Below are positions 35,136 through 58,260 of a stretch of 64,000 nt of DNA, piece by piece. The notes beneath the pieces are model-generated. The model did no database searches. It saw nothing but the letters and a program-made list of their open reading frames with translations, and was not told the origin of the DNA. Each line of letters starts with the position of its first letter. The first letter of the stretch is position 1. The position numbers were made by a program, and so were the translations under genes. The stretch comes from Physcia stellaris (lineage: Eukaryota; Ascomycota; Lecanoromycetes; Caliciales; Physciaceae): the NCBI GenBank assembly GCA_018902385.1, contig JABSSW010000065.1, forward strand, positions 22,144 through 86,143. Reading direction: 5' to 3'.

Positions 35136-37328
35136 TCATAGATTCGCACCCCGATCAAAAACAAACAAATTCCTTCCCTTTCCATTCCCATCCGCGCTAA
35201 CCCAGCCAAGCCTCCCTATGGGCTCCTTAGTCCGACTAACAAGCTGCTCCAAAGTCTTCGCATCCCCAGCATTCGCCACGAACCGCGTCTCTGGCTCGCT
35301 GCTCAGTCGCCCGATCACGAAGCCCTTCGATGGCGCCCCTTGACGGTCGAAGTCAACTGTGTAGGTCTGTGGCTGATTAGCAAGCGATATCATGGAGAGG
35401 AACGGGGGATTTAGTGGTTCAAGAAGCAAATTTCAGGTTTTACCTCAACGATAGCCTCGCCTTCGGGTTCAACTGTGACTGAAGGCACGCGCAGATCTGG
35501 CACGTATTCCGGTAGTGGGTTCTCGGGTGGGTAGGCGGGATTTGAGCTTCTCCGAGGCTGCGTGGATAGACAGAGGGCGTGTTGGCACGTGAGGACGCCT
35601 CCGTTTGCGAGGATTAATCCGTTATGGCCGTCTCTGCTTCTTAGCTGCCGTACCATTGCCGTGAGAGCCTTGATGTGTTCTTAGTGATGTGATGCCACTT
35701 GATACCATATCCAGGTTCAGAGGAAGAACTCACGTGTAAAGAGTAGTTGTTGCCCGCTCCCCCGAAAGACGTCAGTCCACCTAATAACGTGATAGGCTTC
35801 GGCGGTGCTATATATGGTAAACCGAGATGGTGGCATGCGAGCTTTGGGACGATGGGGAAGCAGCTTTATTCCCCTCAGTTTGAGCTTATATGACCTTTGT
35901 AAAGAGAAGGAGGAGGAAAACTTACGAGTAAAAGTCGAAAAGATCAATTTGCTCTTTTGACAGGCCAGCGGCTTGCATAGCGGCATCTAGCGAGCGCGAT
36001 ATGGATGGGCTCGAATGGAAGTTCGGGCGTTCCCAGACTATGTAGGGTTGTATCGTTAGTAAAAAGGTGGTCGTCAGAGAAGTAGTCAAGGATAGCTCGT
36101 CTCACAATTATCAGCGTCCTGTGTGCCTGCACCACCAAGTGGGTAGATCCATCTACTCTCCGGGATCCCCAGCTCTCTTGCATGTCTCGTTGAGGTTAGG
36201 ATACAAGCCGCCGCAAGGTTTACGCTGTTGAACGCGTTCATGAGAAGTGGATCTATGTCATCATCAGTATTACCAATACTCTGATGAGCCCAGTAAAGGC
36301 CCAAGAAGTGAAAAGTACAAGGAAAGCAAATCATCCTATTGCTCCTCCTGACAGTAGAGATGTCACCCTCCGTCGCTGCTGGTTGACCGTGACTCCAAGC
36401 ATACTTGTTTCCCTCCGCGGTTTTAGCAAAATCGGCATACATCTTAGCTGATTCAGTATTATTCTGCTCGATGGTCTGGCCTCGATAAGCTCTGAAACCA
36501 TTCTCATACAAGGCGTATATCTGAGCGGGCAGGCCGATAGCGTGAGCAGTACCGATACCTGAATGTGAAAGATAGGAAGTAAGTAAAACATTTTTTACTA
36601 CTGATACCGAAAAACGTACATACTTCCACCAAACAGACCTAGGTCCAAGGGAGCTGTAGGTGGCGAATGGTCCAGCACGGTCCATCCTGGGGGAGGTAGC
36701 TTCTTTGCCGCTCTGCAGGCGCTTACTGTTTTCCACGTTAGAAGGACGAAAGTCATGGAGCAGAAAATAAGAAGAGAATCTATGATATCGGGCAAGAAAT
36801 GGAGCACTTTTCCTTCAATGAACACGAAGGAATGATCTTGATAGCAGACAATGAAAATCAAACCTCAACAAGCCTACGAGTTTCGTGGATGTATCCACAG
36901 TCCGGGCTCTGCTGGAGATTTGAGTCAAAACATAGAAACTTACATGAGGCTAGAGCTTCGCCACCAGTCACAACTGCCACAGTACTTCTACCCTGTGCTA
37001 TTCTTCGAGCTGCTTCATCGACAAGCTTCATCGGGAGATGACCTCTATGCTTGGTGTAATGCTTGTGCGTAGGATGTACTCCAAGCACTTTGGCGAGAAG
37101 GCCTGGCAGGTCATGATACGGCCAAGTCCAGGTGGCAACCACGTCGATGCTATCGATACTAGACTGAAGCTGCCTTGCCTTAGATGGTGCTACATTAGAG
37201 TCGTTGATAGCGCTAAGGATTGCTTGTAGCATAAGCTGCATTGGTTCAATGGCATCTTCAATTGCATTAGACTTGTTCTTAACATCGCTAATCCCGATGA
37301 TGACTGGGACGACGTGGTCAACAGTCAT
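35136..37328 (-). CDS. Thiolase-like acetyl-CoA C-acyltransferase family protein
   Basis: Fungal relatives are annotated as acetyl-CoA acetyltransferase or thiolase-like proteins acting on acyl-CoA. Eight minus-strand exons give 523 residues: 37328-36944, 36725-36624, 36558-36319, 36252-36106, 36037-35926, 35863-35734, 35668-35444, 35366-35136. Landmarks are VVTGGEALAS, AHAIGLPAQIYALYENGFRA, RMICFPYPLLMNAFN, WIYPLGGAGTQDADNFW, LDAAMQAAGLSKEQIDLFDF, YSCFPIVPKLACHHLG (Cys330) and LLGGLTSFGGAGNNYSLHAL. The last 100 residues are an extra C-terminal domain (TYTVDFDRQGAPSKGFVIG, then EPIGRLGWVSADGNGKGRN). The usual thiolase GHP histidine motif is replaced by GGAGNNYS, as seen in this divergent SCP2-thiolase-like branch. 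No peroxisomal C-terminal SKL is present. The adenylation gene lies just upstream on the same strand. Confidence 0.86.
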
Positions 37329-37596
37329 TTCATTGAGAATTTCCTATTTGTTGGGGGAAGGAACGAGAAATCTGATAATTAATCACATAATTGAATTTTG
37401 ATGGTTGTGTAATAGTCTTTGCAGTGATTGAGATGAAATCCGCTAACTGCGGAGTTCATATATACTAAAAATAATGTCGATAGTAAATGATCTACAATCT
37501 CTTCTGTGACACTGCAATTTTAATATTGTCGAGCAAGTAGAGGGATCTATGAAGCCGTCGAGATCACAGAACTTTTAAGCCCAGGTGCGCCATCTC

Positions 37597-39572
37597 TTAG
37601 AACCCATAATTTGCCTCGGGTCCCGCAGCCTTGTACAGCGCATCCAGTTCATCCCGATATATCTCCTCCGCAAACGCCCTCTGCACAGTCCCTTTTGCCG
37701 CTAATGGGAACGGCTTCTCCGCTTTCGTGAACATAATAAGCGTCTCCATGACCCTTCCCTGGCTGGGACTACTCTCATTTACTTGGGAAATAAGCGCCCA
37801 AACCTCCGCACGAAGTTTCGCCCGTTCGCCTTCGCTAGCACACGGATTTCGCAATTGCACAATCAATGCGGGTCGTAGGCGATGGTTCCCAGTCACGAGA
37901 GCGAACCGGATGGCTGCATGCTGCTCAACGCGCGCTTGCAAACTCAGCGGGTTGAATTTCGCGCCGTTGGCTGAGACGATAAGGTCATCCACGCGTGCCT
38001 CATGCCGCCAGTGATATGGTTTCGAGGGATGTTTGGAATACAGATCCCGAGTGGACCATTCTTGGAGCTCAGGGTGGCTTTTGAAAGCACACTGAAACTT
38101 TTCGAGCTTAGGATCCCTTACGATGACCATCTCATAAAGGTCATCTCGAGCCTGGCGCCACTCAATGCCATTGTATTTCGGGCAATAGCAGATGTACTGC
38201 CAGTCTTCGGGATCAGGCTCGTAGGTGACGAAGGCGCCACCATCAGTACTGCCGAGGCTGTTATGCAGGACGGTGTTTTTGCAGACCTTTGAGATGGTTT
38301 CACCAGCTTCTTTGGCTAAAGGGGCTAGATGTTGTATTAGCGGTTGCCGCATTTTCCCAAGGAAAGGTGTTGTACCTCCTCCAAATCCAATAAATCTTAA
38401 CTTTGACAGACGACCCAGCGAATGAGGAAACTTGCATAATGCCTCCAAGGTGCTAGGAAGAAAATTTGCTGCATCAACAGAGGCATACTCGAGGACTTGA
38501 TTGATGCATTCAAGAGAGGCAGGATCCGGACCAATAAGGCGAGTTGGAGGTCCAACAACAAGAACAACGCCTAAAAAAATTGCTCTCAAAAAGCGGACCA
38601 GGCCTGAACTATGGGATATCGGCATGGTGCTGTAGCTGCATATAGCGTCAGATCAATAGAGAGTTCATCTCATATTTACAACTGGTAAAAGTCACATACT
38701 GCCGCTTGCACTCCTTCATCGTACAATACACGTTCCGGCGGTGGGCGAGCGATAAAGGAATGCTTTGCGCATCTATAGCAGCATACATGCCATGGTTCCA
38801 AACGATAGGTTTCGGCATTCCCGTCGACCCCGAAGTATGGACAATAGCTATAGGCTCACTGGCTGCTTCCTCGAACGATTTGTCGTATGGATAAGGTCTC
38901 ACGCCTTGCTTGAAAAGGAGGTCATCGAGCTTTTCCACACGGAAGCTCCTCATCCCTCCAGTGGCAATCAGAGGACCACTGTCCACTCCTTCCGAGTAAA
39001 TTAAAGTACTACATCGAGTCTTTGGGTGGGGCTCGTAAGCTCAAATCAAAAGGTCAGCCGAGCAGCTGAGACGTACTTTGTCCATCAGCTCCTTATGCCC
39101 AGTAACGGTGTTTCGATGAGACATGAATAAAGTCTGCGAGGATTAATTGAGTATAGGGTTTTTGTGACGAAACCATCCAGAACATATTACTACCTTGTAA
39201 CCTGTCTTGATCAAAGCCAAGGCGACTATATTATACCGTAAGTCTGGAATGCTTGAATAGGGCCAACATTAGCTTGGACAGACGAGAATGGGTCATGACA
39301 GCTATCTACCCCATGTATGCCACTGTCTCGAACTGCGTGCTTCTACCTATGGCCGACTCAATCCACCATGCTGCTGCATCAATCGCCGCAACGAGATGAC
39401 GATATCGCAGGTCACGAAAACCATCTTTCAAATTTGCGGATCGAGGCACTGAAGCCCAGATCTCGTCAGGTGTTTGCCGTCCGACTTTGTCAATCCATGT
39501 GGGGAGCAGTCTGCGGCCACGCTGATCAAATTTTAGGCTATCTCCGGCAGAAAGCTCAATGGAAGCGAGCAT
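37597..39572 (-). CDS. Stand-alone NRPS-like adenylation-domain protein (AMP-binding enzyme)
   Basis: Five minus-strand exons (39572-39310, 39251-39194, 39133-39077, 39019-38700, 38635-37597) give 578 residues. The protein resembles the adenylation domain of fungal NRPS-like (A-T-R) enzymes, which activate a carboxylic acid with ATP: FETVAYMGIPDLRY, HTSGSTGMPKPIVW (residues 187-200), PISHSSGLVRF, GFGGGTTPF, LGSTDGGAFV, WRHEARVDDLIVSANGAKFNP and the A10-like KGTVQRAFAEEIYRDEL with its catalytic lysine. Full-length relatives continue into a phosphopantetheine carrier and a reductase domain; here the reading frame stops 20 or so residues after the A10 region, and no carrier motif lies downstream. 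So it is either a free-standing ligase or a truncated enzyme. Substrate unknown. Confidence 0.85.
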
Positions 39573-39773
39573 GTTGCGGCATGTGAAAATGAGCTCTAGG
39601 AGTTTGGGTTCAAGGATTAAAGTAGATCAGCAGAGGCCGAGAGCGCGAGAAGGCCTCATGTAGAGGGGTTTCAAAAGCTTTTGGTACCTTTACACGGCTC
39701 CATGCTGAAGAAAGTAATCTTGCATACGCTCAGCAGTGAAGTCTCGTCGGCACAATGAAGGTAGCACGTCCAT

Positions 39774-39802
39774 GTCAGCGTCAGCGTCAGCGTCAGCGTC
39801 AG
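39774..39802. repeat. Hexanucleotide microsatellite (GTCAGC)n
   Basis: Four perfect GTCAGC units followed by a partial one. It lies about 200 bases upstream of the adenylation gene's start. Confidence 0.9.
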
Positions 39803-40183
39803 TATCTTATTCACACTAAGCGCTTATTTTGCGCCGCCCAAGATATTGGGAGCTTGGCAAGCTTCCAGGCGGTCTGTCATCATGGCCGAAAGCCGACAGA
39901 AACCTCTCCTATCATTCTCGTACGACAGAGCACTCTCCACCCACTGTGCAGCATGGATGCCCGAACACAGTTGCCCATGCTCGGTTCGAACAGTTCTCTT
40001 TGGTTTTGTAGCTTATTGTGGTTTAGGAGTGTGTGTAGTCCGTGTTGTGCGTGTAGGTAAATCGCTGAGTACCTAATGTATGGGAAATCCGAGGTGGCCT
40101 CTCCCAAGTGTCCGGATTCTTCTGCAAACGGCTTGTTAGGATTCTATCTTAGAAGGCAAACCCCATAAGCGGCAGAGGGTGCT

Positions 40184-40290
40184 TCCGTCGTGGAATGGTT
40201 ATGACATTCCTCATTAGCGCTCGAGGAGAGAGTCCGTGGGCCTGCCGTCTCAGAGCGTAAGCGTGCCTCTGGGCTCAGACCACGGATGGA
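40184..40290 (+). ncRNA. Possible structured RNA or tRNA-like element
   Basis: Pairings seen by eye: TCCGTCG (40184-40190) with GGATGGA (40284-40290), six of seven allowing one wobble; GGAATG/CATTCC (40192-40197 with 40205-40210), seven-base loop; TCCTC/GAGGA (40208-40212 with 40223-40227), which competes in part with the former; TCCGTGG/CCACGGA (40233-40239 with 40280-40286, overlapping the outer stem); and inner CAGAG/CTCTG (40251-40255 with 40267-40271). The start TCCGTCGTGG plus GGTTATGAC resembles a tRNA 5' half, but no proper T-loop is present. Strand is assumed. Confidence 0.2.
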
Positions 40291-40838
40291 CTTGGCTAGA
40301 CCTTGTCAGCATCCCCGAATCAATCGTCTCAAAAGTCGGTATCTTGCACTGAATCTAAATGCATGTGGGGATAAAGGAAACAACTTGGGGTGCCAAGGAT
40401 TAGTAAGTAAAGAATGATGTACACGCTAGGATGATATCTCGTAATATTACATGTAATTGGCTGGTAGCTCCCGTCTTGCCGAGGAGGGAGCCGACCGAGC
40501 CGAGTGCGCGTCCGAGCTTATTCAACCTCCGGTGAGGTCTGATGAGGCTTATTCACCCTGGATCAAGGCCACACAGTGAAGACTCAGCTGACGGAGTCCT
40601 TCTGAGGCTTACATGCGTTCTTCCGAACGAGCGGCACCCTTGTCACCATGGGAACTGTTTGTGAAATGCAGTTTTTCCCCCAACCATCCAGAGTCCGTTG
40701 GAGGGACTTGACTGTGAACTATTCTGGCATAATGCCCTCAACTCCATCGGCATCTTGCCCTACACCTTCCAAAACCCAGCCCGAGCTGATGCCGCGCAAG
40801 TCAGTTCCTCAATCGATCTAACGTGTGTGGTGGACAGG

Positions 40839-42508
40839 ATGGCAGAAGCTGCAGTCCCTGCCTCAAAGACTGCCTTGGATGAGAGCAAAGGCCCGCCAGA
40901 TGTCGCACCGAATGTTGATGCAGAGAAAGGGCATATATCAACGAAGCCAGAACCAGTCTCCTCCCTCAGCGATCCCAATCTTGTGCGTGCCAGCTGCAAC
41001 TTCAGCACCAGGTTTACTATGCTAATTCCGATGGAAAGGTTACGTGGGACGGGCCTGACGATCTTGCAAATCCCAAAAATTGGAGTTATCGAAGAAAATG
41101 GACCGTCACTCTTGTCGTTTCTGCCTACACATGCATTTCGGCTATGTCAACCTCCATTGCCGCCCCTGCTCTGATAAGATTGGCACCGGACCTGCACATC
41201 CACAGTCCCTTCATAGCCTCCCTTGTTCTTTCAATATTCATTCTGGCCTACGCCTTTGGACCTTTTGTCATTGGACCACTATCTGAGGTGTACGGCCGAG
41301 TCATCGTGCTCCAACTGGCAAATACTTTTTACTTAATCTTCAATACTGCTTGTGGCTTCGCTCAAAGCACGGGTCAAATTCTTGCATTCCGATTTCTTGC
41401 TGGTCTTGGCGGCAGGTATGTTTTTTGGCCAGTCTTCCACGTTGATGCTGAACAAGTGCGCGTCAGCTAACGATCATCAAGCGCTCCTTTGACGATCGGA
41501 GGCGGTATACTCGCCGATTGCTGGACTGCTGAAGAGCGTGGAAGGTCTATTGGTATCTATACATTAGCCCCTCTGTTGAGTCCGGTGGTCGGGCCCATTG
41601 TGGGAGGATTCGTTACACAAGGTACTACTTGGCGATGGGTTTTCTGGGCAGTATCCATTACCGATGGCTTCGTCCAACTTCTGGGGCTTTTTTTCCTACG
41701 AGAAACCTACCCGCCCAAGATCCTTGGCGATAAAGCTAAGAAATTACGCAACAGCACCGGCAACCAATCCTGGCACACAAAGTGGGAAACCCCTAATCGC
41801 ACATTCTCCAGGACACTCAAGGCTGCGCTTGTGCGACCATTCATCTTGCTAGGAACGCAGCCCATCATCCAAATCCTTGCGCTTTATATGGCTTTCCTGT
41901 ATGGTGTCGTCTATCTGGTTCTCACAACGCTACCCACTCTCTGGACAATACGCTACCACGAATCCATCGGTATAGCAGGGCTCAACTATATTTCCCTCGG
42001 AGTTGGCTACCTGTTTGGCACACAATCTACTGCTCGTATCAATGATGTGATATACCAACTCTTGAAAGAAAAAATCGGCAAAGGCATTGGACGGCCTGAA
42101 TTCCGCCTTCCTCTTCTGGTACCGGGGTCCATTCTTGTCCCAGTAGGAATTTTCTGCTATGGTTGGAGCGCACAAGCGCATCTCCATTGGATTGTGCCAA
42201 ACGTTGGACTAACAATCTTTGGGGTTGGTATGAAAATTGCTACCCAGTGCACGCAGACATATGCCGTTGATACATATCCCCTCTACGCTGCATCTGCAGG
42301 CGCTGCTAATACCTTCCTAAGATCTCTAGCCGGTTTCAGCTTTCCTCTGTTCGCACCGTACATGTATGACAGATTGGATTATGGTTGGGGAAGTAGTCTG
42401 ATAGCTTTCCTTGCGATAGTTTTAGGTGTCCCCGCCCCTTTTGTGCTGTGGAAGTATGGCCCATGGCTAAGGACAGTGAGCCAATTTGCGGCAGGGGATG
42501 CTGACTGA
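40839..42508 (+). CDS. Major facilitator superfamily transporter (DHA1-like)
   Basis: A plasma-membrane proton antiporter of the drug:H+ type is the likely role; substrate unknown. Three exons (40839-40982, 41039-41415, 41482-42508) give 515 residues with about 12 membrane helices. A hydrophilic head of about 70 residues ends with the family's TWDGPDDLANPKNWSYRRKW motif. Then come helix VTLVVSAYTCISAMSTSIAA, the MFS signature FVIGPLSEVYGR, FRFLAGLGGSAPLTIGGGIL, the DHA1 motif APLLSPVVGPIVGGF, and a central loop (FLRETYPPKIL). The start was set at the Met of MAEAAVPASK, because upstream codons in the frame lack an ATG. It is divergent from the adenylation gene and precedes the citrate synthase-like gene. 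Confidence 0.92.
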
Positions 42509-43507
42509 ACGGCATCTCTTTGCTTCGAGTCTGATCCTTGTTTCTTCCATCGTAACTTCTACGAATTATATGTATCTGCTCCTATATCATTACAGTACAA
42601 TTTTAGTGATTGGCCTCTTGTTTCTGCCTACTCTACACTGTCGTCATCGGCTCCCAAGACAGATCCCATAATTATCTGCCTGAAATCACCGATCCAGATT
42701 CGGAAGTAGCTACAAACTCAAAGTAAGCGGTGATACCCCGATGTGTGACTTTGTATCTGCTTACATCGAGAATGTCTGCTTTTCTTGCCACGATCACCCA
42801 TTCCGGTTCTCCCTTTCACTCATCATGGTCTTATCTCGCGAGTCTTAGTCGTTTATCCACTTTAGCGCTTAGTGTTGCAGTTTCTTTCTTTTGTGGAACT
42901 TGCTTACGGAGCTTTCCTGTCTTACACCGGTTGCCAACCGCCGATTCTCCCCATCAAGACATTTGGTCCGATATGACGCTGCTCTTGCGTCGAATGCTTC
43001 GAATATCACATCCACTTACCTTAGGATTCGAAGCTATCCACTTACGGCATACAGGGCTGACTATGCTTTTTAATCGAGGTCTACCGCTTTCGATGCAGAT
43101 GCCTCGTGATGGGCATGTGGCCCAACTTCCCGCTTTGATAAGTCGGGTCCTGCCTATCGGGTCTGTTCAACTCACCTTGAGTATACTGCTCCTGGAAAGG
43201 TGGCCGCCCCAATTTCTCGCATAAGATGCTGTACATTAAGATCCACGTGGCTCCGTACAAAAGAAAAAACCGCGAGACCCGCAAGACTGCAGGCCATTTA
43301 CTCCAGAACGAACAGCTAGGGATTCCTCTGAAGGGGGTGTTCAGAATTGACAGACCGCCACTTTCACTAATTCGTGTGCTCCTTGTCGGACGCCCTCAAG
43401 GTACTTGAGATGGATCTTTTCCTTACTTTTGGTCTGCGTTTTCGCCCGACATTGAGAAAGCACTTTCGACCTTCAACTCTGTCAAGCTTCTCAAGATAGC
43501 CGTCATC
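42509..43507. other. Intergenic: promoter of the citrate synthase-like gene
   Basis: About 1 kb between two plus-strand genes. An open frame at 42730-43224 matches nothing known to me. No RNA gene or repeat seen. Confidence 0.5.
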
Positions 43508-45467
43508 ATGTCTGAAGGTGTACTCTACGTTACTGATTCGCGAACTTCCCTTGAATATAAGATACCTATCCACCGCAACACTGTCAAGGCCGTCGACTTC
43601 CAATCCATCAAGGGCCCTGTCACAAACTCGGACCTGGCTGACCAAATCAGAAATGGTCTCCGCCTATTTGATCCCGGTTTCAAGAACACTGCTGTCTCGG
43701 AGTCAAAGATAACTTTCATGTGTGTAACAAAGCTGTATTGATCAAATGTCTAATTCGCTATGATCTAACCTATGATGACAGTGATGGTGCTCAAGGCATT
43801 GTGCAGTATCGGGGTCAGAACATCGCAAACTTCTGGCAGACAGCTGAATTCGAGGATCTCCTCCATCTTCTTGTGTGGGGTCGATGGCCTTCTGCTGCCG
43901 AGAAGGAGGCACTGCGGAACGAACTCATCAAAGCAGCAAAGGAAGTACCTGGAAGTGTAAAGACCGTCATTTGCGGATTTCCGTAGGTACTTTCCCACCT
44001 CTTTTATCTGGTGAGCCTCAACCACTGATCTTTTTCATACAGAAAAACGGCTGCACCAATGCAGATGATCATTGCCGGTCTTGCAGCATACTTGGGTGAA
44101 GATCCGAAGAGTATTCCAGCTTATTCGGGCCGCAACCTGTATCAAGGCAATCTGCCTTTGGTAGACAAAGCAATCATCCGAACACTGGCTGCATTCCAAG
44201 TCTGCACCGGACTTGCCGCCTCACATCGTAATGGGACTCCATTCACTAGCGTGGACGCTGAGGGTTCTTTTCTTTCTAACCTACTCACCATGATGGGCAA
44301 AGTCGCCAAAGATACAGGAAAGCCCGATTTGAACGCCATCCGCGCGGTCCAGCGTATCTGGGCTCTCGGCGCAGATCTGGGGCACACGAACTCCACATCG
44401 GCGTTTCTTCTTGGAGCTTCCACACTTTCCGACCCTCTGTCGTGCCTCATATCTGCTTTGTCTTCAGGCTATGGGATCCTCCATTTCGGCGCCGCAGAAG
44501 CCTCCTTCAAGTCATTAGCAGCCATCGGCAGTAAGAAAATGGTGCCCCATCTGATCAACAAAGTCAAGAGGAAAGAAGCGAAACTTTACGGCTACGGTCA
44601 TCGGATGTTCAACACAATTGATCCGAGGATCATTTTCGGGGCTCAGATACTGAATGATCTCGGTTCCAAACACCCCTTGGTGGAGGTTGCGATGGAGATT
44701 GATCGCATTGCTAGAGAAGATGAATACTTCACCTCCCGAAGTCTTCAAGCAAATGCAGATCTTTTCATTGGGATAATCTATACTGCACTGTGAGTTCTCC
44801 AATACTTTTCAATGCATATCATGTCCTGAGCACTAGATTCGTGGTATGGAAAGGATACTGACAAATATGAATGAATTAGGGACTTCGATCCTTCATTCGT
44901 TCCAGTAATGATCGCGCTCATGAGGTCTGGAGGCATGATGGCACACTGGCGTGAAGCTATGGGTAAGCCTCTCGAGTGCTAGCAACAAAAGTGTCAAAAT
45001 GATTTTACTAATCATCGTCGGTGGCCGCAGCCCAACCCAAGACAAACATCTGGCGTCCCCAACAATTCTACACCGGAGTGGTCGGCTCCACCCCGGCTTC
45101 CAAGACGGCGAAAGCAGCCGAAGATGCAACCGACACTCAGACCTCGGTGCTGGAGAACATAATCCACGTCCCTGCTTCTGATCCAGCATCCGGAGCTGAA
45201 AAGCCCGAAATAAAGTTATCGAATATAGCGGAAACGGATGAGGTGAAAGCTCTCCAACGTGCTCTAAGCATTAATCTCGCAACTACGACAACAGTGGCCG
45301 AAGTCACGGTCAGTGAGGTGTCGTCGGACACGGAGTCGAGTCTGTCGTCTCGCTTCGTTAGCCAGGCGCCCTCGGATACGGAGTCGATCCCTTCATCACC
45401 GTTACCGACGTGTAAGACTTTCGAGACGGAGATCCGTGCCGTTACTTCGGAGGCCCGCGAGGCATAG
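43508..45467 (+). CDS. Citrate synthase-like protein (fungal alkylcitrate-synthase-like branch) with C-terminal tail
   Basis: It condenses, by family, an acyl-CoA with oxaloacetate; the acyl chain is unknown. Five exons (43508-43719, 43782-43982, 44043-44789, 44880-44962, 45031-45467) give 559 residues. The core shows ITFIDGAQGIVQYRGQNI, FEDLLHLLVWG, LGHTNSTSAFLLGASTLSDP, GILHFGAAEAS (catalytic His), YGYGHRMFNTIDPR (second His and Arg), NADLFIGIIYTAL (catalytic Asp) and RSGGMMAHWREAM. The HTNSTSAFL stretch replaces the classical DHE-NxSAHT region of mitochondrial enzymes, as in secondary-metabolite citrate synthases. There is no mitochondrial presequence and no SKL. About 120 residues after FYTGVVGS form a disordered acidic Ser/Thr-rich tail with a repeated SDTES motif, unusual for the family. 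Context suggests a metabolic cluster; this is inference. Confidence 0.88.
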
Positions 45468-47286: not shown

Positions 47287-47940
47287 TCAAATAATCTCTT
47301 CCACCTGAGCGAAAGTATCAACTGTTGTCATTTTTGCGTAGGAGACAGCTAGTGTGCGATCGCTGGTGCCGTTTCTTTTGTGTAGTCTCAACAGGTGACA
47401 GGTTCTCCGCTTCCATATTCGCAGATGCTTGAACCTGACCGAGTTATATCTTTCTTTAAGATCTTGCAAAAGGACCTCGATTCGATCCACAATACCCGCA
47501 AGTCTCTTGCGATCTCTCATTACCCACTGGCCCGAAGATCGCATTCCGCGTACTTTTGCTCGGCGCTGACGACGTCTACCAAAGCGTGTCCTAGACCCTG
47601 TCACAGGATCCTGCAGGCCATGATCGAAAGCCTGTGCGCTATGTCGATGGCAAAGCGAAGCTCCTTCTTTGAAGAGCACCAGAGTCCTTTCCGTCATATT
47701 CAAGATCTGGGCATCAACTCTTGCCGAAATGCCGGCACATTTGCAGATGTAACCTCTGTCCAGACGCAGCGGCTTAGCCCACCGTGTGAAAGCTTCCCAC
47801 TGCATCTGCAGCCTCTGTTGGATTAGTCCGAGGTCGTCGTCTTTGGTCCTGGCAGCCTCGGCCATTTCGAAGAGTTGGACACAGACACTGAATAAGCCAA
47901 TCAGACCAACGACGCCGATTGCGAGTCCCGCTGCTTCCAT
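47287..47940 (-). CDS. HeLo-domain (HET-S/LopB-like) protein
   Basis: One exon of 217 residues. The opening MEAAGLAIGVVGLIGLFSVCVQLFE is the hydrophobic helix typical of the HeLo domain, which can insert in membranes to execute cell death in fungal incompatibility and immunity. Later hallmarks are IQQRLQMQWEAFTRWA, and QWVMRDRKRLAGIVDRIEVLLQDLKE, matching the WAxxDKKKF region of HeLo. The length fits one HeLo domain (about 220 residues); I see no amyloid motif, ankyrin repeats or kinase-like part after it. It looks whole. An in-frame Met seven codons upstream (47961) is possible, but the Met before Glu-Ala-Ala fits the family. Role as cell-death executor, inhibitor or something else cannot be told from sequence. 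Confidence 0.8.
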   Translation of the reverse strand: MEAAGLAIGVVGLIGLFSVCVQLFEMAEAARTKDDDLGLIQQRLQMQWEAFTRWAKPLRLDRGYICKCAGISARVDAQILNMTERTLVLFKEGASLCHRHSAQAFDHGLQDPVTGSRTRFGRRRQRRAKVRGMRSSGQWVMRDRKRLAGIVDRIEVLLQDLKERYNSVRFKHLRIWKRRTCHLLRLHKRNGTSDRTLAVSYAKMTTVDTFAQVEEII

Positions 47941-49014
47941 TCTGTTGTCTAGAATACGCATGAAAATGGAGAGTGATAAATAGGAGCTGCGAGATGTCTC
48001 TTGACAAGCAATCTGTTTCTGGAGACACTGAGCCGGCTGCGCTTTGGGGAGGGGAAGGTGAGGGACATATGAAGGGGATCGAACTCAAGTATGGTTCAGG
48101 ACGATAGATATCATCCGGTAGGAGAACCTTGGATGTATCCTCTCCACCGAGAGGCTAGTCTTCTGAGAAGCGAGCGGATCTTATGCCAAGAAAATTGACA
48201 TCGACAATACACGCTGTGTGAATCAGCGCTGGATCTCGGCCTCTTCGATATCCGAGCAGGCTTCGGCGGAGAGCTTCATGAGTGCTGCTGCGTGGCGGCT
48301 TGTGTGGCTATGTCTCAGCCTTATGAGTCGACGAGCTTTTCATCATCCATACATCGAATCTGATCGCAGGCTGTGGGACATTTAGTGCCAGCCACAAGAA
48401 GGACTCGATCCTGACGAGGTCCACGGGGCGGAAGGCTAGGATGGCTTTCTGTCTTGGTATGTGCCGTGAAGGAATGCCTGCGCCACTGAAGGATAGCAAG
48501 CAGCTGGACTTGGATGCCTGGCCTGGGCTTAGCGAGTTTGATCCAAGTCCTCCAGTCCGCCGGATATGTGAGGGAGGTCATCCTCATGGTTATTGTTTGT
48601 CTTGGTGACTTTGCGACATTCTGCTAATCAGTAATAGTAGGCGGTAGATTGGCCAAATTTACTTGGCACAATCGCCCTCGAATTGGGATTATGAGAATGG
48701 AAGGTTGGTCGAGTGAATTGAAGCTCCGTGCTAATTCTGCGATCCGGGCAAATTGTATGAAAAATCCGAGGTTTCGATAAGCATATATAAATTATTAGGA
48801 ACGAAATATTGATAGTCCTGAAATAATAATCATACAGGCCGTTGCTTTTCATAGACATAAAGCCTCCGAAAGGATATCGTGAACCGAGATAACCGCCCCA
48901 AAGAAGAAGAAATTACATCTCATGTAGTAAAACAGAATCGCCGAGCCTGAAAGCATAAGCTGCAATATTATCAAAGGCCGTGCAAGAAATGCGTAAACAT
49001 GAGACCAAAACCCC
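47941..49014. other. Intergenic region upstream of the HeLo gene
   Basis: About 1.07 kb between two minus-strand genes. It should hold the HeLo promoter and the 3' region of the large charged protein gene. Short frames at 48308-48587 and 48628-48858 are unconvincing. The stretch 48700-48860 is AT-rich. Confidence 0.5.
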
Positions 49015-55893: not shown

Positions 55894-58260
55894 ATGCCCG
55901 AGCCAACGAACCAGAAGCTCTGGCAACATGGGGATCCCACTTCCACGAGAACCTATGCTTTCAAGAAGTCAATTATAGACAAGTACAACGCACAATTAGA
56001 TGATTATGAATCACTCCGCCAATGGACTACGAACCATATCGCGTTATTCTGGGGCGAGGTGTGGCATTTTACTGGCATTCGATCTTCAACCCCTTTTGAC
56101 AAGGTAAGGCATCAGTCGAGATTCCTATATTCAGTCCTTTGCTTGCTTGCTTAACCAGCGGTCAAAGTCTCTTCAATCACCGTCTGATCGTTGCCAAACT
56201 TCCGTTCAAAGAAAGCAATAATAGCCCTTTCCTGCCCGTCTTTTACTTGAATATCCAATATCCAATATGCAGCAATTGTGACTTCTTCCATAGCTGTGAC
56301 CGTAGATTGGATTTCGTAAGACCAAATTAAAGCAGCCTGTCATCGCCGTTCCGCAGCCTACTATGTTGTGGTCTAGGCCTTAAGCTGATGGCATCAGGTA
56401 GTCGACGAGGATGCTCTCGTGTTCCCGCGTCCTCGATTCTTCGAAGGAGCAAGATTGAATTTCGCAGAAAATCTCCTGTTTCCATCATGCAACCCAAAGG
56501 AGGATTCTTTGGCTGTCATAGCTGCAACAGAAGAAACCCGAGAGCACGTCACCTGGAAAGAGCTCCGAGAAAGGGTACGAAAATGTACCGCCGCTATGAG
56601 GACGACGGGTGTCAAAGAAGGAGATCGTATTGCAGGTTATGTCGCCAACCACACGAATGCTTTAATAGCCATGCTCTCGGCCGCCTCTATTGGCGCGTTG
56701 TGGACTGCGATTTCCCCAGACACCGGTGTCCATGCGGTCTTGGATAGGATACAGCAAATCGAGCCTGTCCTTCTCTTCGCAGACAACGGAGTCATGTACA
56801 ATGGCAAAACCCACGACGTGCACGACAAACTGAAGGATATCACCAAAGAAGTCCCGACTCTTCGCACAGTCGTCATCTTTGAAACTATCAAAGATCACCA
56901 CTTCGACCTCACAGACATTTCCGTCCCCTCTGGCAAACCCCTGACATACAGCGACTTTCTCTCCTTCGCCCCCTCAGAGGCTCCCTTCTCCTTCGCTCAA
57001 CTTCCCCCAGACCATCCGATTTACATCCTCTACTCTTCCGGCACAACCGGCAAACCGAAATGCATCGTCCACGGTGCCATCGGTACGCTCATCCAACATA
57101 AAAAAGAGCACGATATCCAATGCTCTATCCGTCCCGGCGACCGCCTTTTCTACTTCACAACCTGCACCTGGATGATGTGGCACTGGCTCGTGTCCGGGCT
57201 CGCCAGCGGCGCAACCATAATCCTATACGACGGCTCTCCCTTCCGACCCCTCGATCCCTCCACAGGCACAGGAGAACTCGCAATGCCCCACCTCATCGAC
57301 GAGCTGGGGATAACGCACTTCGGCACCTCGGCCAAATACCTCTCTATCCTAGAGCAAAAAGCAATCCACCCCCGTCAAGCGCCCCACAACCTCTCCCTCA
57401 ACTCCCTAAAAGCAATCTACAGCACCGGCTCCCCGCTCTCCGCCTCCACCTTCACCTACATCTACTCCGCCTTCGGCCCCTCCCTGAACCTCGCCAGCAT
57501 CACAGGCGGCACGGATATAATATCCCTCTTCGGCGCGCCCTCGCAAATCTCCCCCGTCTACGCAGGCGAAGTGCAAGTGCGCGGCCTGGGCATGGCCGTC
57601 GAGGTCTTCGATCCCGCTTCCGGCGCCACCATCACCGACACAGGCGACCCGGGCGACCTGGTATGCACGCGGCCCTTCCCCTGCCAGCCCGTCATGTTCT
57701 GGCCCCCGGGCCCGGAAGGCGAGGACAAGTACCGGAAAAGCTACTTCGAGACTTGGGGACCGGCCGTATGGCATCATGGGGATTTCGTGCGGGTCGTGCC
57801 ACAGACGGGCGGAATGGTGATGCTGGGCCGAAGCGACGGGGTGCTGAAGCCCGCGGGCGTCCGCTTCGGCAGCGCGGAGATCTATAACGTGCTGCTGGAA
57901 CATTTCCCGGAGATTGAAGACGCGCTGTGTATTGGTCGCCGCAGGGAACAGGATTCGGATGAGACGGTTGTGCTGTTTGTGAAGATGGCTGGGACGGGGC
58001 AGGGGGGAACGGAGACGGGGAATGGGTTCTCGGAGGAGTTGAGGGGGAGGATTAAGGAGGTGGTGAAGAGGGAGCTGAGCGCGAGACATGTCCCCGGGAT
58101 CGTGGATCCGTGCGAGGAGATCCCCGTCACGGTGAATGGGAAGAAGGTCGAGGTGGCGGTGAAGCAGATCCTGTGCGGATTGAATGTCAAGACGAGTGCC
58201 AGCGTGGCGAATGCGGGGTGTTTGGAGTGGTATAGGCGGTGGAATGAGGAACATTCGTGA
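55894..58260 (+). CDS. Acetoacetyl-CoA synthetase (acetoacetate-CoA ligase)
   Basis: It activates acetoacetate to acetoacetyl-CoA in the cytosol, using ATP and CoA, feeding sterol and lipid synthesis or ketone use. Two exons (55894-56103, 56398-58260) give 690 residues, close to the family length. The N terminus PEPTNQKLWQHGDPTSTRTY and RFFEGARLNFAENLL are family marks; the 294-nt intron falls between DK and VVDEDALVFPRPRFF. The AMP-binding motif is YILYSSGTTGKPKCIVHG, then TTCTWMMWHWLVSGLASGA, ITGGTDIISLF, HHGDFVRV and LGRSDGVLKPAGVRFGSAEI. The catalytic lysine is in PVTVNGKKVEVAVK. The shadow frames on both strands within 57100-58520 reflect high GC at third positions. The first intron is long for this window. 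Confidence 0.95.

Follow-up and report, generated by a model that had tools for sequence, protein, structure and literature searches.

A thiolase-like protein type 1 with a candidate aldolase motif within a four-gene locus of Physcia stellaris

Do four consecutive genes of the fungus Physcia stellaris, encoding a thiolase-like protein (TLP), a stand-alone adenylation enzyme (ADE), a transporter of the major facilitator superfamily (MFS) and a citrate-synthase-like protein (CS), act together, and what reaction could a thiolase-like protein contribute to such a group? The genes occupy positions 35136-45467 (10.3 kb) of a 64,000-nucleotide stretch, termed the window here, which corresponds to C65:22144-86143 of a genome with 43,974,083 bases in 147 contigs. 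Four consecutive genes had been placed at 35136..45467 by an original prediction, and this placement was borne out by spliced models, hand-made from reading frames and GT..AG introns, which span the same coordinates and give Pfam matches fitting each family. All four models are open from ATG to stop, with no internal stops. The best explanation offered here is that the genes form a small carboxylic-acid module, to which a probability of about 0.3 was assigned. The best-supported novelty is the prediction that thiolase-like proteins type 1 (TLP1s) are acyl-CoA aldolases, a prediction that is independent of the cluster and compatible with the four genes being chance neighbours.

TLP and the candidate aldolase motif of the TLP1 family

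TLP (35136..37328, minus strand) was modelled as a protein of 523 aa from 8 exons (36944-37328, 36624-36725, 36319-36558, 36106-36252, 35926-36037, 35734-35863, 35444-35668 and 35136-35366). Pfam searches identified TLP1_add_C (PF18313, E 9.3e-28, residues 423-507) and Thiolase_C_1 (PF22691, E 2.5e-7), and the closest solved relative by phmmer was TLP1 from Mycobacterium smegmatis (MsTLP1, 4EGV; E 7.1e-56, 31% identity). The gene is single in the genome, with all 8 matches being its own exons. By PF18313 and the sequence fingerprints YSCF (residues 328-331), GGL (357-359) and NGG (394-396), TLP is a member of the TLP1 family. At the position of the nucleophilic Cys of the CxS fingerprint the sequence reads RGHLP, and the second Cys, of the CxG fingerprint, is missing from ANGG at residues 393-396. 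Because neither catalytic Cys is present, TLP cannot work as a thiolase, and plain thiolase identity was ruled out. The description of TLP as a divergent thiolase-like enzyme was therefore right as to family and was corrected as to role, since the loss of both cysteines had been missed and the protein appears aldolase-like. The protein terminates in GANL (window 35139-35150); human catalase is directed to peroxisomes by a terminal ANL, and TLP may be peroxisomal. According to the 2012 paper, MsTLP1 likewise lacks both thiolase cysteines, with Gly102 at the first Cys position, is a monomer without thiolase activity and was not assigned a function (PMC3406046).

A candidate reaction is provided by CtSal, a bile-acid retro-aldolase whose fold is that of a thiolase and whose motif YDCY supplies two residues required for catalysis, Tyr302 and Cys304 (PMC12329534). 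As far as the available text of that paper goes, TbSLP (motif YDCF) was proposed as an aldolase by the same authors, having no associated DUF35 domain and a reported activity of only slow malonyl-CoA decarboxylation; DUF35 proteins act as partners of 6ESQ, 7PXP, CtSal and Ltp2; and neither TLP nor 4EGV is mentioned (PMC12329534). A TLP1 alignment and profile of 45 sequences were constructed. Of 80 loci recovered from GTDB, 76 have a TLP between 440 and 620 aa in length, and 44 of these proteins were used. When searched against solved structures, the profile identified 4EGV, 7YVY, 4U4E, 6ESQ, 9MYR (CtSal, E 6.4e-10) and 5AB4 (TbSLP, 2.2e-9), as well as SCP2 thiolases, 6OK1 (Ltp2, 4.6e-8) and, more weakly, ordinary thiolases. 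FDLYSCF of the profile was aligned over AQIYDCY of CtSal, and a 50-residue sub-profile placed TbSLP second after 4EGV (5AB4, E 1.1e-6), with YSCFP over YDCFP. By these alignments, the Tyr and Cys of TLP1 occupy the positions of the CtSal catalytic residues Tyr302 and Cys304, and aldolase function was inferred because of this equivalence. In the fungal gene, the codons for FDFYSCF (residues 325-331; 35857..35939, minus strand) are split by intron 5, and Tyr328 and Cys330 are the proposed catalytic pair.

Conservation of the motif was assessed in two samples. The GTDB scan gave 449 pattern matches and 364 relatives, from which the 80 loci were kept; one of its two search patterns was the YSCF stretch, so conservation of YSCF in this set is largely by construction, and the count was set aside. 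All 44 bacterial and archaeal TLP1s in the alignment keep YSCF and N236, but both fall within the patterns that found the set, whereas E181, R295, G357, G358 and Y369, which lie outside them, are invariant in 44/44. An independent sample was obtained by searching the PF18313 domain model against 200 genomes of one phylum (that of genome G001). Twelve genomes matched, 11 of them above the Pfam cut-off, and with one match already in the GTDB set, 11 loci were new. YSCF was found in all 11 new TLP1s, including the one below the cut-off (L136). The family reaches widely, with the 80 loci coming from Proteobacteria, Actinobacteria, Chloroflexi, Bacteroidetes, Lokiarchaeota and others, to which this fungus is added. 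TLP1 genes on Lokiarchaeota/Lokiarchaeia contigs are those of loci L081, L082, L083, L090, L102 and L114.

Structure prediction gave a full-length model of a bacterial TLP1 with a pLDDT of 95.4. After 4EGV, its Foldseek matches were 7YVY, 6ESQ/6ET9, 4U4E, TbSLP, CtSal, SCP2 thiolases and benzoylsuccinyl-CoA thiolase. The 50 best matches include 6esq, TbSLP, 9myr, 7pxp/7pyt and 6ok1, with Ltp2 at rank 38 and ordinary thiolases in between.

The C-terminal OB-type domain of TLP (residues 423-507; 35187..35518, minus strand, interrupted by the last intron) was delineated by PF18313, hhalign and an OB-fold model. The C-terminal domains of 45 TLP1s (residues 428-515 of the window protein) were combined into a profile and compared with a profile of 29 DUF35 OB domains (PF01796, eight genomes), and hhalign returned a probability of 94.0% (E 1.4e-7, 58 columns), or 89.9% with the DUF35 zinc-ribbon part added. 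In a control with 14 TLP1 slices of 88 residues, 13 stayed at or below 2.3%, among them slice 361-448, which overlaps the start of the domain, and slice 391-478, which holds half of the domain, gave 86.6%. Thirty column-shuffled DUF35 alignments gave at most 2.2%, and a reversed alignment gave 0.4%. The C-terminal domain of a bacterial homologue was modelled with a pLDDT of 91.7, and its Foldseek matches were 4EGV followed mostly by OB-fold proteins (SSB, PriB, ribosomal protein), weakly, at E >0.01. An OB fold for the C-terminal domain of TLP is supported by the model, and a relationship to the DUF35 OB domain is supported by profile comparison only, since the 50 top Foldseek matches of the domain alone contain no DUF35 structure.

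Several observations weigh against the aldolase assignment, beginning with this lack of a DUF35 structure. The relation of TLP1 to Sal is remote (20% identity in the Foldseek match), and ordinary and SCP2 thiolases match the fold too, with 1,031 Foldseek matches at E <=0.001. The second motif residue is Ser in YSCF and Asp in the motif of CtSal and TbSLP, and Pfam finds no DUF35 zinc ribbon in TLP. A literature search found no TLP1 assay beyond the negative thiolase test. No link between TLP1 and the DUF35-associated aldolases was found in the published titles or abstracts searched. On balance, we propose that the TLP1s act as acyl-CoA aldolases and carry a DUF35-like domain in the same chain, an assignment that we rate as somewhat more likely than not. 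A crystal structure from the family dates back to 2012, with no function assigned in the literature found, and the YSCF motif and the OB-domain link make a function testable.

The adenylation enzyme, the transporter and the citrate-synthase-like protein

ADE (37597..39572, minus strand; 578 aa) is encoded by 5 exons (39310-39572, 39194-39251, 39077-39133, 38700-39019 and 37597-38635). Pfam matches to AMP-binding (E 1.9e-18) and AMP-binding_C_3 (E 1.2e-26) were obtained, and the protein ends after the latter with no carrier or reductase domain found by Pfam, as had been predicted. The motifs HTSGSTGMPK, GSTD, TRDLY and AAKGTVQR are present; they include the phosphate loop and, in the C-terminal domain, the catalytic Lys (AAKGTVQR). 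The enzyme is probably an active acid-activating one. An insertion of ~20 residues follows the GGG motif. Adenylation-type matches number 36 in the genome, five of which are ADE's own, and the relatives include two A-T-R reductases (L025 and L026, with carrier and reductase recognised by eye) and an adenylation-only protein (L027). GSTD of ADE reads GSTE in the two A-T-R paralogues and ASTE in the adenylation-only one.

The MFS gene (40839..42508, plus strand; exons 40839-40982, 41039-41415 and 41482-42508) encodes 515 aa with a match to MFS_1 (E 2.8e-42). The nearest solved relative by sequence is Quinidine resistance protein 2 (E 9.2e-14). The expected DHA1-type pump was thus confirmed on family, with the type assigned from this relative and from sequence motifs of DHA1 transporters.

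CS (43508..45467, plus strand; 559 aa; exons 43508-43719, 43782-43982, 44043-44789, 44880-44962 and 45031-45467) was identified by Citrate_synt (E 5e-77) and alignment. Citrate-synthase-type genes number four in the genome, and a weak match on contig C22 was presumed to be ATP-citrate lyase. The closest paralogue, at C1:241,537-242,796, is 44.8% identical over 429 aa, whereas identity is 33% with plant peroxisomal citrate synthase 3 and 25% with the C5 paralogue. The C1 locus (C1:236412-247322) contains an iron-type alcohol dehydrogenase, PrpD, the alkylcitrate-type CS, a P450 and a divergent MFS gene, with the nearest ketosynthase matches on C1 lying well away from it, at ~12 kb and 660 kb. 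Synthase and dehydratase are thus paired at this locus, which was taken as an internal control for alkylcitrate-type gene organisation.

The active site of CS departs from this paralogue. Codons 44371..44394 (plus strand) read ADLGHTNS, so that the first catalytic His of ADHE.NxST is Leu (ADLGHTNST in CS versus ADHELTNST in the C1 paralogue). This His is present in the 4 aligned solved citrate synthases (4 shown of 57 matched) and in the 3 genomic paralogues. The His two residues on (LGH) might substitute for the one lost. The second active-site His is kept at codons 44470..44493 (plus strand), in YGILHFGA as against YGPLHGGA in the C1 paralogue, the flanking Pro and Gly having become Ile and Phe. 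Compared with solved relatives, CS keeps the positions of the second His, the catalytic Asp and the substrate Arg (YGILHFGA, NADLF, GYGHR, MRSGG and WRPQQ), the residue roles being those of citrate synthases. It was concluded from the alignment that CS is very probably neither an ordinary citrate synthase nor an ordinary alkylcitrate synthase. The earlier description as citrate synthase-like, of the alkylcitrate branch, held for the branch (44.8% to a PrpD-adjacent paralogue) and had overlooked the lost catalytic His. As an alkylcitrate-branch protein without the first catalytic His, CS is a clear case for the question of pseudoenzyme versus changed reaction.

Beyond the part that aligns with citrate synthases, CS carries a C-terminal tail of ~128 residues (window 45081-45467) that is of low complexity and rich in Ser, Thr and Glu. 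A search for relatives of CS in viral contigs gave 6 stretches matching the pattern, none of them a relative. PrpD has no match in the window and one weak match on C65, ~91 kb from CS; this PrpD-type match (C65:158677-159003) contains one in-frame stop.

Joint action of the four genes and the alternatives

The proposed module builds on what was observed above, namely how the genes are built, to which families they belong, which catalytic residues they keep or lack, the OB fold and its profile relation to DUF35, and it presumes particular substrates, an aldolase activity and joint action of the four genes. ADE would convert a free acid to acyl-AMP and probably onward to acyl-CoA. TLP would make or break a C-C bond beside the CoA thioester through aldol or retro-aldol chemistry, with Tyr and Cys of YSCF acting as in CtSal, and its fused DUF35-like OB domain would stand in for the separate partner of CtSal and Ltp2. 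CS, an alkylcitrate-type protein, may have a changed reaction or a binding role, normal enolisation being unlikely because the catalytic His is lost. MFS would move the acid or product across a membrane. No core synthase accompanies these genes: the genome contains 57 ketosynthase matches, none of them on C65, in agreement with the predicted lack of a polyketide or fatty acid synthase in the window, and ADE, with one domain, is the only nonribosomal peptide synthetase-type protein of the four. If the four genes act together, modified acids would be made by a route that escapes cluster-finding tools that look for a core synthase.

The four-gene cluster is put forward as a hypothesis, for which the consecutive, tandem or divergent placement and the compatible chemistry speak. 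TLP and ADE are in tandem on the minus strand, with 268 bp from the ADE stop to the TLP start; MFS is divergent from ADE, and MFS and CS lie 999 bp apart on the plus strand. Both alkylcitrate-type CS genes of the genome are within ~3 kb of an MFS gene, the two MFS proteins being 28% identical over 125 aa. In the divergent ADE-MFS intergenic region (39573..40838, 1,266 bp between starts), a GTCAGC tandem repeat was found at 39774-39802 (4.8 copies, 100%).

Three lines of evidence count against joint action. The flanking genes are ordinary. The three promoter regions do not have a single word of 7-10 bases in common, and their number of shared 7-mers is 0 compared with a mean of 4.2 in mononucleotide shuffles, although a degenerate motif is still possible. 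The neighbourhoods of bacterial TLP1 genes are likewise not conserved and show a weak excess of acyl-CoA dehydrogenase only. This tally covered 52 loci, after loci with TLPs at least 80% identical were dropped. Of their 189 near genes it took in 185, all but the four of L088, and of their 263 far genes every second one, 132 in total. Acyl-CoA dehydrogenase was found for 7 of 121 genes near TLP1 and AMP-binding for 3 of 121; neither is among the 25 commonest Pfam families listed for the other 64 near or the 132 far genes, where families outside those 25 may still have a match or two. The 8-kb flanks of the 80 TLP1 loci contain a cluster represented by enoyl-CoA hydratase in 13 cases and one represented by acyl-CoA dehydrogenase in 10, amid numerous unrelated genes, gyrase and trigger factor among them. 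Of the 132 far genes (at least 4 places from TLP1; loci L039-L118), 3 encode zf-ChsH2, the zinc ribbon found in DUF35 proteins.

These data bear on three alternatives. That the four are unrelated metabolic genes brought together by chance, with TLP in general acyl-CoA turnover (possibly in peroxisomes, and possibly still by aldolase chemistry) and expanded fungal families as the source of ADE, MFS and CS, was given a little short of an even chance. The abundance of adenylation proteins in the genome, the ordinary flanking genes, the lack of shared promoter words, the inconstant partners of bacterial TLP1 and the lack of any cluster-type transcription factor recognised by eye among window open reading frames of at least 150 aa all agree with chance placement, whereas the run of three acyl-CoA or acid-type proteins plus a pump within 10.3 kb, the tandem and divergent arrangement and the MFS gene near the genome's other alkylcitrate-type CS do not. 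Should the locus instead encode a conventional alkylcitrate pathway, ADE would make an acyl-CoA for CS to condense with oxaloacetate and MFS would export the product. The identity of CS to the PrpD-adjacent paralogue is in keeping with this, and a study of maleidrides reports an AMP CoA ligase in some maleidride clusters and a byssochlamic acid alkylcitrate synthase restricted to a CoA substrate (PMC8851701). Nevertheless, the loss of the CS His and the lack of a PrpD match in the window make a plain alkylcitrate pathway improbable; the changed surroundings of the second His and the lack of a ketosynthase match point the same way.

It is also unlikely, if slightly less so, that TLP is a non-catalytic acyl-CoA binder (a scaffold or sensor) in a group that is decaying or regulatory together with the His-less CS. 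The monomeric state and missing thiolase activity reported for MsTLP1 (PMC3406046) and the catalytic residue lost from CS would fit such a role; the invariance of E181, R295, GGL and Y369, the presence of YSCF in every independently sampled TLP1 and the open, spliceable state of each of the four genes speak against it. Participation of the four genes in one shared pathway is regarded as possible but less likely than not. The full proposal, namely that acyl-CoA aldolase activity and a DUF35-type partner in cis are common to the TLP1s of bacteria, archaea and this fungus, and that here, with ADE, a repurposed His-less CS and a pump, TLP forms a new aldol-based acid pathway without its own polyketide or fatty acid synthase, is a more speculative extension and is considered doubtful.

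The gene content and spliced genes of the window are fungal. The flanking genes include a histidine phosphatase, a ribosomal-L10-insert protein and a HeLo protein, among others, the HeLo (prion-inhibition and propagation) domain open reading frame lying at 47290-48084 on the minus strand. An AMP-binding gene recognised by Pfam at 56389-58257, ~11 kb downstream of CS, is one that we take to resemble acetoacetyl-CoA synthetase.

Comparison with known systems

No published cluster with this four-gene set was found in literature searches. CS belongs to the same citrate synthase family as the alkylcitrate synthases of fungal maleidride clusters and the C1 paralogue (45% identity), and it keeps the second His, Asp and Arg positions of the latter. 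It differs from these systems in having Leu for the first catalytic His and in lying in a window without a PrpD or ketosynthase match. ADE shares its adenylation-domain type with fungal A-T-R reductases and is ~34-36% identical to the paralogues in this genome, but it lacks carrier and reductase, as does the adenylation-only paralogue.

TLP resembles MsTLP1 (4EGV) in its thiolase-type domain, its YSCF, GGL and NGG fingerprints and its PF18313-type C-terminal domain, although the latter protein is bacterial and only 31% identical. TbSLP (5AB4), the SCP2-thiolase-like protein of Trypanosoma brucei, has YDCF aligned with YSCF of TLP1 and differs in having no associated DUF35 domain (PMC12329534). 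The steroid side-chain aldolases CtSal (9MYR) and TcLtp2 (6OK1) differ from TLP in the motif (YDC rather than YSC), in a steroid setting that the window does not have and in the zinc ribbon, none having been found in TLP. They share with TLP a thiolase fold without the thiolase Cys pair and a Tyr (in Sal also a Cys), catalytic in these aldolases, at the same motif position. Their DUF35 OB-domain partner is a separate protein, to which the putatively related OB domain fused in TLP1 would correspond.

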